Below, piece after piece: positions 41,395 through 43,938 of a stretch of DNA of 62,426 nucleotides. The position numbers were made by a program, and so were the translations under genes. Below the pieces are notes generated by a model that saw only the letters and a list, made by a program, of their open reading frames with translations, was not told the origin of the DNA and did no database searches. Origin of the DNA: Bacteroidales bacterium (GTDB lineage: Bacteria; Bacteroidota; Bacteroidia; Bacteroidales; Paludibacteraceae). The number at the start of each line of letters is the position of its first letter. Within the stretch, counting starts at the first letter, position 1. The stretch lies in contig DUQS01000047.1 in NCBI GenBank assembly GCA_012837685.1, positions 1 through 62,426 on the forward strand, written 5' to 3'.

Positions 41395-42174
41395 TTATTT
41401 CGTGTTTAGTCTGTTAAATATCCCATTTGCTTTTATATTGTCAACAAGAACCTGTATCTCTAATGGTTTACTCCATTTTCTATGAATCATTCTGTGACAG
41501 TTTGAACAAACTGGAGTTAAATTTTGTAATGCATTTTTTAACGTGTTTTCAAGGTCTTCATCTTCATATTTAAAAATGGGCTTGGTATGATGTATTTCAA
41601 TAAATCCTTTCCCAAGTAGTTCTCCATAAAAATCATGAAAGTTAAAATTACAACATTTACAGTAAATTTTCTCATTCTTAGTATAATATGCGATAGCATA
41701 ATTTCTCAAAGTAGCTGAACGCTCATATACAGCTACTTCTGTCAATTTTTTTGTTCCTTCTTGTATAATTATATTTTCATCAAATGTTTCAATCTTTTTT
41801 TTGTTTTGATTTTTTTCGACTTTTCTAAGACTTTCTGTTAAATCTGTATATGAAAAATCATTGATTAATAAATATTTCAAAATATCTTGATTGTTTTCTA
41901 AATGTGCTTTACCTTCTTTTGTGATTCCTATTTGTCCGGCATCATATTCAGCGTAGCCAAATCGCTCAAAAGTTCTATGTGCAATTAAATTTCTAACTTT
42001 TTGAGAAAATTTATCATCACTTCTTCCGGCTAAAATTTTTAAATCTTCCCCTGTTGGTTTCATTATATCTCTAAGTTTTTGAATTAATTCACTTGTTGAA
42101 ATTACCCCGTTGTTTAAACTCATCAAATATAAAGAAGGAAGAATCAACTCGGTTTCTGTAATTCTCTTTTCCAT
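41395..42174 (-). CDS. HNH endonuclease with Mrr-like winged-helix N-terminus (probable restriction enzyme)
   Basis: This 259-residue protein has a winged-helix N-terminus (ELILPSLYLMSLNNGVISTS ... GYAEYDAGQIGITKEGKAHL) similar to the Mrr N-terminal domain, and a C-terminal HNH nuclease with two Cys pairs: CKCC (172-175), IHH (His195, His196), Asn218, and CSNCH (Cys223, Cys226, His227). Such proteins are restriction enzymes paired with a methylase. It starts 3 bases after the stop of the Dam-like methylase on the same strand, so translation is probably coupled. The region is strikingly A/T-rich. The recognition site cannot be read from the sequence. Confidence 0.88.
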   Translation of the reverse strand: MEKRITETELILPSLYLMSLNNGVISTSELIQKLRDIMKPTGEDLKILAGRSDDKFSQKVRNLIAHRTFERFGYAEYDAGQIGITKEGKAHLENNQDILKYLLINDFSYTDLTESLRKVEKNQNKKKIETFDENIIIQEGTKKLTEVAVYERSATLRNYAIAYYTKNEKIYCKCCNFNFHDFYGELLGKGFIEIHHTKPIFKYEDEDLENTLKNALQNLTPVCSNCHRMIHRKWSKPLEIQVLVDNIKANGIFNRLNTK

Positions 42175-42177
42175 ATT

Positions 42178-43377
42178 TTAATAATTAGTGATTAATAAAT
42201 GCTCTACATTTTTGTCATTCCTATTCATAAAACTAACAAGATATTTTTTGTCAAAAGATTGAATATTTAGTCCTTTATTTTTATAAAGCTCAAAAATGAA
42301 ATCTGTGTTTTTTATTATCATCATCCATTTTCCCTTACATTTTTTTATTAAATAATTTGCAAGTCTGATTTGGTCTTTTTTTGTAAATTCATTTTTAGCA
42401 TAGGTGCTAAATTCACTATCATAAGGAGGGTCTAAAAAAACAAAGTCATTGTTTTCAGGTGTGTGTTGCTTAAAAAAATCTTCAAAGTCTAAATTTTCTA
42501 TCACAGTATTGTCAAGCAATGATTTTAATTCTTTAGTTTTTAAATATTCAACTTTTTTAGAAAAGTTTTTATTGTTGTATGCAATGCCACCGTAAGGAAC
42601 ATTAAAATCTCCTTTTGAATTATAACGAAACATACCACTGTATGCAAAATTCCTTATAAATAAAAAAATGGCAGATTTAAAAGCACTATTAATTTTGTAT
42701 TTTTCAGTATTGTTGTAAATATGGCGAAAATGCATATAAAATGCACTTTTAAGAGCTGTTTCTATATTGTCTAAAATATCATTATCAGGTAAAAGATATT
42801 TTTCTTTTTCCAATTGTTTCATTCTCTTAATCTTTCGAATAAGATTGATTTTTATTTCTTTAATGAAGTTTTCAATATTAAAATTAAACATTGATGAGAA
42901 CATTCCATTGAATTGGTCTGCATGTTTTAATATAAACTCAAATAAAATGTCCTTAAGTTTCGTTTCTTCAATTTTGTTACTTGAATATTTTTTGTAAGTT
43001 TCAACAAAAAAAACATCATTTTTCTTTACAACCAAAGTTAATAAATCCCAATTGTGTATTATTTCATCTAATGCTTTAAAAAATAAAGTTCTATCACTAT
43101 TTATTATGCTACGATATAAAGAAATAAGTTCTTCGGATTTATCATTAACAAAATATTTATCAGCTTGTAGTGCTGTATAAACAGCACCACCACCGACAAA
43201 TGGCTCATAATAATTTTTGAATTTTTCAGGCAGATTGGGTACTATGTATTTTAATTCTTGTTCTTTACCACCAGCCCATTTTAAAATAGGGTATAATTTT
43301 CTAGATTCAACATAATTACCAAAATCAAGTCCAATTTGGTTATATGTTGCAATAGGTTCTTTTACTGAATTTTTCAT
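42178..43377 (-). CDS. Dam-family (D12 class) DNA adenine N6-methyltransferase
   Basis: This methylase modifies adenine in a specific site and would protect host DNA from the neighbouring HNH nuclease. The N-terminus shows WAGGKEQEL and the cofactor motif FVGGG (60-64). The catalytic motif DPPY is at 316-319 (FLDPPYDSEF). At 399 residues it is longer than Dam (about 280), with an insert of over 100 residues in the target-recognition region rich in Lys, Ile and Phe. A -7 element (TAAATTTG, minus strand, 43382-43389) almost touches the ATG, so the transcript would have almost no leader. The high A/T content suggests import. Confidence 0.92.
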   Translation of the reverse strand: MKNSVKEPIATYNQIGLDFGNYVESRKLYPILKWAGGKEQELKYIVPNLPEKFKNYYEPFVGGGAVYTALQADKYFVNDKSEELISLYRSIINSDRTLFFKALDEIIHNWDLLTLVVKKNDVFFVETYKKYSSNKIEETKLKDILFEFILKHADQFNGMFSSMFNFNIENFIKEIKINLIRKIKRMKQLEKEKYLLPDNDILDNIETALKSAFYMHFRHIYNNTEKYKINSAFKSAIFLFIRNFAYSGMFRYNSKGDFNVPYGGIAYNNKNFSKKVEYLKTKELKSLLDNTVIENLDFEDFFKQHTPENNDFVFLDPPYDSEFSTYAKNEFTKKDQIRLANYLIKKCKGKWMMIIKNTDFIFELYKNKGLNIQSFDKKYLVSFMNRNDKNVEHLLITNY

Positions 43378-43485
43378 ACTACAAATTTAATCAAATTTTC
43401 GATAATAATAAATTTTAGCATGAATGGTAACGAATTTGACTTAATTAGTTTTGGTGTTTTCGCTGGCGTGGTTTTCCCGTTTTTA

Positions 43486-43938
43486 TTAATTCGCAATTAA
43501 TAAGATTATCGGTAATCCAATAACCAAAAGTAGAGCATAAATTGATAAAATTACTATTGTTAAAATTCCTGTAAACTTAAACAGCGATTTTAAGTTTTCA
43601 AATCCTAAAGTAATGTCTTGGTTATTATCCGATTCTAAGCCTTTTTTAATTTGAATTGAGAATTTGTACAGAAATTTTACCGGAAAATAGTATAAAATTG
43701 CGAGGGCAAAGTAGATTACGCCAAATGTTCCCAAAGACAAGCCTACATCTAATTTAATACTGGTAATGAAAGATATAACTATTAAAGCAATGGCGACAAT
43801 AGCCAAAACTGCAATTCCTATATATCCGACAATAGCCAAGAATTTTCCCCATTTGGAGATTTCTAAAAGATACGTTTTAATTTTACTGTCATCGGTTAGG
43901 GTTTGATTTACCGATTGGATGTTTTCAAAGTTTTCCAT
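43486..43938 (-). CDS. DUF5362-like small membrane protein
   Basis: This 150-residue integral membrane protein has four likely membrane helices (about 35-60, 65-92, 110-128, 130-149). Between helices two and three lies a soluble stretch (KFSIQIKKGLESDNNQDITLGFENLKSLFK). The layout resembles DUF5362 proteins, which are widespread in Bacteroidota and of unknown function. It lies 108 bases upstream of the methylase gene and 30 bases downstream of a small coiled-coil frame, all on the minus strand. It is less A/T-rich than the methylase region. Confidence 0.7.
   Translation of the reverse strand: MENFENIQSVNQTLTDDSKIKTYLLEISKWGKFLAIVGYIGIAVLAIVAIALIVISFITSIKLDVGLSLGTFGVIYFALAILYYFPVKFLYKFSIQIKKGLESDNNQDITLGFENLKSLFKFTGILTIVILSIYALLLVIGLPIILLIAN

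Follow-up and report, generated by a model that had tools for sequence, protein, structure and literature searches.

Enzymes in which a winged helix (wH) is joined to an HNH domain, SruGXI and HpaD253I among them, are reported to depend on N6-methyladenine; enzymes of 224 to 283 amino acids are described, several of them toxic in Dam+ cells, and the tables list no in vitro activity for members shorter than 300 amino acids (PMC11037411). Of more than 1,000 wH fusions of every type in that survey, 87% lack a methylase within three genes to the left or right (PMC11037411). The sections considered here describe no wH-HNH enzyme with a Dam/D12 partner, and the term "D12" occurs 0 times in the main text (PMC11037411). 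For the Dam class itself, structural work on the Escherichia coli enzyme describes contacts of K9 with the first base pair of the site, of L122 and P134 with the third, and of R124 with the fourth, together with intercalation by Y119 (PMC10073500).

The locus characterized here lies in a stretch of 62,426 nucleotides from a Bacteroidales bacterium (hereafter the window), in which a first-pass annotation had described a tightly spaced and A/T-rich pair of genes for a Dam-type methylase and an HNH nuclease. Both genes are on the minus strand and are read from 43377 to 41395, with the methylase (42178–43377, 399 amino acids) as the upstream gene and the nuclease (41395–42174, 259 amino acids) 3 bp behind it; both ORFs are intact and start with ATG. 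The base composition was also as described, with a GC content of 0.251 for the methylase gene and 0.283 for the nuclease gene against 0.404 for the window, 0.480 for comM, and 0.443 for pfkB, and with exactly 10 G or C in the 60 bases from 42841. As is characteristic of Type II restriction-modification systems, the two genes are linked and the catalytic motifs are intact in both proteins (DPPY and EPFVGGGAV in the methylase; HH/N/H and two CxxC pairs in the nuclease). We consider it very likely that the two proteins constitute a restriction-modification pair. The features of the locus are as follows.

41395–42174, minus strand: winged-helix and HNH nuclease, 259 amino acids, probable restriction endonuclease (domain searches, alignment, model)
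41887–42174, minus strand: N-terminal winged-helix domain, residues 1–96 (alignment, AlphaFold2 model, fold matches)
41479–41661, minus strand: HNH catalytic domain, residues 172–232 (PF01844, E = 7.9e-6, above the cut-off)
42178–43377, minus strand: Dam/D12-class N6-adenine DNA methyltransferase, 399 amino acids (family models, PADLOC, Foldseek)
42421–42432, minus strand: catalytic motif DPPY, residues 316–319 (D316, P317, P318, and Y319 invariant in 21 aligned sequences including the window)
42577–42642, minus strand: DNA-contact segment YSGMFRYNSKGDFNVPYGGIAY, residues 246–267, equivalent of the Dam segment starting at Y119 (aligned with E. coli Dam and DpnM)
42763–43080, minus strand: helical insert absent from Dam, residues approximately 100–205, edges approximate (alignment and predicted helices)
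41405–43399, minus strand: stretch common to the window and locus L004, 90.9% DNA identity (blastn)
43382–43389, minus strand: TAAATTTG, candidate -7 promoter box, 4 bp before the methylase ATG (sequence; kept in L004 and L005)
43415–43431, minus strand: 17-bp element GTTACC(A/G)TTCATGCTAA, near the cassette edge upstream of the methylase (common to the window, L004, and L005)

The methylase scored well above the cut-offs of its family models, with E-values of 2.6e-52 for TIGR00571 dam (178.1 bits; curated cut-off, 114.85) and 2.6e-36 for PF02086 (126.1 bits; cut-off, 22), and it matched the PADLOC model MTase_II at 6.1e-61. A Foldseek search with its structural model returned E. coli Dam as the top match (E = 2.5e-12) and also DpnM (5.1e-12). 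The curated models and the fold thus agree that this protein is a member of the Dam/D12 N6-adenine class. It is 121 residues longer than the 278-residue E. coli Dam, in keeping with the first-pass estimate of about 120 residues, and the extra length is mainly accounted for by a predicted all-helical segment at approximately residues 100–205 (predicted helices of this region, 96–119, 121–132, 138–151, 153–160, 168–192, and 198–222).

The nuclease had been annotated as an Mrr-like winged helix joined to an HNH domain. Both domains were recovered, whereas the label "Mrr-like" held up poorly: HNH alone passed the cut-off in the Pfam search, and Mrr_N fell below it (E = 0.012). Residues 1–96 form a winged helix in the AlphaFold2 model (whole-model mean pLDDT, 79.6), which matched PadR/MarR/RosR-type chains with Z values of approximately 8–9 and includes the motif R-x-DDKFSQKVRNL (R51, D53–L63), invariant in 22 aligned sequences. 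The HNH domain comprises the pairs C172–C175 and C223–C226 together with H195/H196, N218, H227, and H231; these residues are kept across the alignment, apart from a D or H in place of N218 in three relatives (L023, L024, and L028) and from the L025 protein, in which the HNH part is missing. A Foldseek search of the model against the PDB gave no match at E-values up to 0.001, and a second fold search tests mainly residues 1–157, so that the HNH assignment rests on sequence. A profile of the nuclease family matched the HNH part of EcoKMcrA (E = 1.7e-4), and no DpnI chain was listed at E-values up to 5. The protein falls outside the DpnII family, as HNH is the only model that it passes and its own genome contains no PF04556 match.

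Scanning genome contigs with a pattern seed yielded 46 loci. In 21 of them the match extends over almost the full nuclease, and in 13 of these 21 (L004–L012, L014–L016, and L019) the long methylase lies directly upstream. Two other near-full-length nucleases have a different partner, namely, a Dam-type methylase without the insert (L021) and an Eco57I/MmeI-type protein (L017), a type of partner reported in 47 cases (PMC11037411); for a third (L013), the contig ends 141 bp upstream, and the upstream neighbor lies outside it. In L023, L024, and L028 the neighbor is a small ORF in convergent orientation that contains [DN]PPY; when the first two of these ORFs were searched against methylase families, that of L023 scored below the Pfam cut-off and that of L024 gave no match. 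The last two of the 21, L020 and L027, have the broken nucleases described below. The pair also occurs on a viral contig (L050) and in the family relative G014 (50% identity for the nuclease and 51% for the adjoining methylase), and a Monoglobales phage encodes a nuclease and a methylase with 43% and 39% identity, respectively, the methylase being convergent and one ORF lying between the two. Searches with the nuclease by tblastn matched 190 plasmid records, none covering 80% of the protein, and seven phage records, one of them covering 80%. The gap between the two genes was -1 to +3 bp in 13 of the 15 pairs measured, the distance matrices of the two proteins were correlated (Mantel r = 0.829, p = 0.0001, n = 15 pairs), and dN/dS values against L004, L005, and L006 were 0.04–0.07 for methylase and nuclease alike. 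Conserved linkage, co-divergence, and purifying selection thus indicate, at the level of sequence, that the two genes form one unit.

The first-pass annotation had also proposed that the pair was acquired horizontally, and comparison of relatives bore this out. Among 61 genomes (the window's own and 60 relatives), the nuclease was matched in three, namely, its own, G014, and G030, the last being a weak match to the HNH part only. The congener G001 (87% complete) keeps the order rmuC-yraN-pfkB-comM-purF-like, and its pfkB and comM are 1.17 kb apart, with a lipoprotein-like ORF but neither the methylase nor the nuclease between them, where the window has 3 kb with the pair; no nuclease match was found elsewhere in this genome. 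The L004 locus, from a MAG labelled Flavobacteriales, shares the cassette at the DNA identity given above (90.9%), in a match that ends near the gene ends, whereas the comM products of these genomes share only 70% protein identity. These results support movement of the pair by horizontal transfer. The A/T-richness that had been taken as a sign of acquisition is real, but the GC content of the pair is 0.25–0.35 in 14 relatives with flanks of 0.26–0.57; because low GC is a family trait of the pair, it does not on its own demonstrate a recent acquisition. Between the pair and pfkB lies an AT-rich (0.30) DUF5362-like gene (43486–43938) that has no match in the congener stretch, and this intergenic region therefore looks variable.

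Upstream of the methylase, TAAATTTG fits TAnnTTTG, the Bacteroidota -7 promoter box, and it may serve as the -7 box of the methylase promoter. The 17-bp element was considered as an attachment site and rejected: two exact matches in viral contigs fall inside unrelated ORFs, the flanking DNA shows no stronger folding than shuffled sequences do, and the sole other match in the window to its first 14 bases has two mismatches (at least two such 14-base matches were present in 13 of 100 shuffles).

Our main reading, to which we assign a probability of roughly 0.78, is that the locus encodes a mobile two-gene Type II restriction-modification system. The pair is real and intact, appears to be mobile, and is probably functional. 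The Dam-type methylase would mark the adenine in GATC, and the nuclease would recognize GATC that lacks methylation on phage or plasmid DNA entering the cell, with the winged helix as the putative reader of the site and HNH as the putative metal-dependent cutter; methylation of the host DNA would block the nuclease. Cutting of unmethylated DNA is proposed because a GmATC cutter would destroy a host that carries a GATC methylase. In this scheme the recognition site, the position of the cut, and the methylation state that is cut are all inferred.

Alignment suggests that the methylase keeps most of the GATC-contacting residues of Dam. K33, P261, R251, and Y246, the equivalents of Dam K9, P134, R124, and Y119, are identical and invariant in 21 aligned sequences, and N253 and N259 are also invariant there; Dam L122 is replaced by M249, which is itself invariant, whereas R137 (a phosphate contact) and N120 correspond to G264 and S247, respectively. 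Site counts point the same way. GATC was found 82 times in a 355-kb sample (20%) of the window genome against 859 expected (observed/expected ratio [O/E], 0.10), and 360 times against 923 expected in the congener sample (O/E, 0.39). Its O/E was below 0.5 in 13 of 15 carriers of the pair, two Treponema carriers showing no depletion (0.99 and 0.98), and also in 9 of 13 family non-carriers. The medians were 0.19 for carriers (n = 15) and 0.49 for non-carriers (n = 38), with a one-sided p of 0.0066, uncorrected, which was the smallest among 16 palindromes and became approximately 0.11 after Bonferroni correction. In the same test AGCT, CCGG, GGCC, and TCGA gave p values of 0.04–0.05, and carriers may therefore simply be rich in restriction systems. 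The carriers comprised the window genome, G014, and 13 named genomes, leaving out the Bacilli carrier L009, the viral contig L050, and G073, whose nuclease is truncated; the non-carriers were 40 genomes minus two with few expected sites, leaving out G087, which has another Dam-type match. The pair was removed from the window genome sample only, a few kb were counted twice in at least the samples of L014, L015, L016, and L019, and non-carriers were not matched to every carrier.

The first-pass annotation had suggested that the recognition site may be new. Open scans put GATC first and revealed no novel motif: it was the best of 885 patterns at separating 14 carriers from 13 non-carriers, and it ranked first of 951 patterns in a matched-relatives test, being below the pooled relatives in six of six groups, with 2 of 20,000 permutations as extreme (48 of 20,000 for GGCC). 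In two groups of the matched test the carrier was only third of six and second of seven, and the five added carriers were picked after all five had been seen to be low, nine carriers being omitted, including the two from Treponema; because the choice of carriers biases this test, the claim of avoidance rests on the comparison of 15 with 38 genomes. The pair itself contains no GATC (approximately 3.5 expected), and inside the genes of 15 pairs the O/E was 0.38 for GATC; lower values for CTAG (0.17) and GGCC (0.27) and an equal one for CATG (0.39) count against a special position of GATC there. DpnII-family (PF04556) matches were present in 3 of 16 genomes (G014, G064, and G072) and absent from the other 13, including the window's own; without these three carriers the GATC contrast had n = 12, a median of 0.18, and p = 0.019. 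The MutH family, which includes Sau3AI, was matched in none of the 16; GATC enzymes of other kinds may nevertheless be present. With the Dam contacts mostly kept, we judge GATC likelier than a new site and give somewhat better than even odds that the site is GATC or contains it as a core.

Site avoidance is reported for about half of orthodox Type II cases and becomes stronger the longer a system has resided, and GATC is likewise avoided where the enzymes are methyl-dependent and DpnI-like (PMC4687349). Avoidance can therefore speak for a site, but not for one direction of methyl sensitivity over the other. A GATC loss of 90% implies long exposure and fits poorly with a recent arrival. The empty site of the congener would imply less time under GATC cutting than this strong loss suggests, and the lineage may have carried an earlier GATC system. 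GGCC (O/E, 0.06) and CTAG (0.08) are depleted in the window genome sample as strongly as GATC, and the GGCC depletion suggests another past or present system.

The reading closest to the main one retains a restriction-modification pair and gives it another site, such as a longer motif or GGWCC; other past or present systems would then account for the loss of GATC. We consider this reading possible but less likely. A Psychrobacter plasmid (NZ_MN657089; L224, 2675–4661) encodes a long-insert methylase with 39–40% identity next to a TdeIII-family nuclease. The TdeIII-family site is GGNCC, and this partner would point to GGWCC. GGACC fell more than two-fold short of expectation in 8 of 14 carriers, compared with 2 of 13 non-carriers, and the undepleted Treponema carriers, as well as the low GATC counts of the 9 family non-carriers, also fit a site other than GATC. 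However, GGACC was undepleted in two carriers with depleted GATC, G062 (1.25, with GATC at 0.36) and G069 (0.91, with GATC at 0.10), and showed no depletion in the two Treponema carriers; the kept Dam contacts and the first rank of GATC in both scans, the second with its biased choice of groups, likewise speak for GATC. A GGWCC-type site, proposed from the TdeIII-family partner and the partial GGACC depletion, is the main alternative to GATC.

It is improbable that the nuclease acts as a type IV enzyme that requires methylation, as the published wH-HNH enzymes are reported to do, and is not the partner of the methylase. It shares the architecture of those 6mA-dependent enzymes and lies within their size range, in which toxicity in Dam+ cells was reported for several; its HNH domain resembles that of EcoKMcrA, and its single PADLOC match is a type IV model (E = 3.3e-4). 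A type IV enzyme of this kind would be expected to stand alone without a protecting methylase, whereas a Dam-type methylase is directly linked to the window nuclease and co-diverges with it in 13 of 21 near-full-length relatives, and a GmATC cutter would be lethal beside a GATC methylase. The absence of a methylase near most wH fusions was taken as a sign of type IV function (PMC11037411); the window nuclease would fall in the methylase-linked minority, and being tied to a Dam-type methylase, it should cut unmethylated DNA. A degraded remnant or inactive selfish element is very improbable, as both ORFs and the catalytic residues are intact and dN/dS is low, although some relatives are broken, with a nuclease that is frameshifted (L020, where the second downstream ORF encodes an N6_N4-type methylase), split (L027, with a D12 fragment 1.7 kb upstream), or truncated (L022).

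The window genome holds a second restriction pair (G000:C45; L080, 4366–6949), composed of a 303-residue Dam-type methylase and a 559-residue nuclease, with a best E-value of 3.3e-52 against PADLOC nicking/Type II models. We take this pair to be AlwI-like, as a Leuconostoc plasmid combines a similar methylase with a nuclease of the AlwI family. If the pair has the AlwI site GGATC, this 5-mer should be depleted beyond GATC; it stood at 1.71 of its Markov expectation and was not, and on that condition the second pair was rejected as the cause of the GATC loss.

The winged helix itself recurs in other contexts. A Gracilibacteria locus (L025, 927–3648) encodes a methylase with 62% identity, followed by a winged helix (44%) joined to a non-HNH domain, HEPN-like by eye with an RHDLVH motif, and then an N6_N4-type methylase. 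Three Firmicutes loci (L045, L047, and L049, near 5000) have a free 84-residue winged helix beside a convergent long methylase with 35–39% identity and, on the other side, an N6_N4-type methylase (L047) or a similar-sized ORF with [DN]PPY (L045 and L049). The same kind of winged helix is found near the start of proteins of approximately 570–870 residues in nine loci, mostly from Pelagibacteraceae (L026, L029, L030, L032, L033, L035, L036, L039, and L048); the L029 protein has matches to the RNA-polymerase alpha-CTD, and an ORF of 539–541 residues, a GHKL-type ATPase in L032, lies upstream in L026, L032, L036, and L048. The occurrence of related winged-helix modules (DDKFSQKVRNL) as free proteins of 84–86 residues, or joined to different effectors next to related methylases, would make the module a swappable site reader.

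Compared with described systems, the locus resembles the DpnII/MboI-type GATC systems in its Dam/DpnM-type methylase with most site-contact residues, and possibly in the same GATC site; it differs from them in that its nuclease is a winged helix plus HNH and not of the DpnII family, and in the helical insert of approximately 100 residues in the methylase. AlwI-family pairs (Leuconostoc plasmid CP042405 and, by likeness, G000:C45) also have a Dam-type methylase with YSGM(I/V)RYN...FNVPYG, but their nuclease is of the AlwI family and their methylase lacks the helical insert. EcoKMcrA is alike in its HNH domain, whereas its N-terminal domain reads 5-methylcytosine (PMC11037411). The wH-HNH enzymes, likened here by architecture and size, mostly stand alone, unlike the window nuclease with its tied methylase (PMC11037411). 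We tentatively propose, as a possibility that falls short of even odds, a class of GATC systems in which a winged-helix HNH enzyme cleaves unmethylated GATC and is stopped by methylation from its own Dam-type partner, in the opposite sense to the methylated-GATC enzymes. If so, winged-helix HNH enzymes would comprise methyl-dependent and methyl-blocked forms, like DpnI and DpnII but with one nuclease architecture; comparing both forms would show how the reader switches its methylation preference, and the family, compact and widely transferred, would contribute a GATC cutter of a new type. As a restriction-modification system the locus is otherwise ordinary biology: its recognition site is probably an ordinary one, and in the way its parts are combined it is a variant of known systems.
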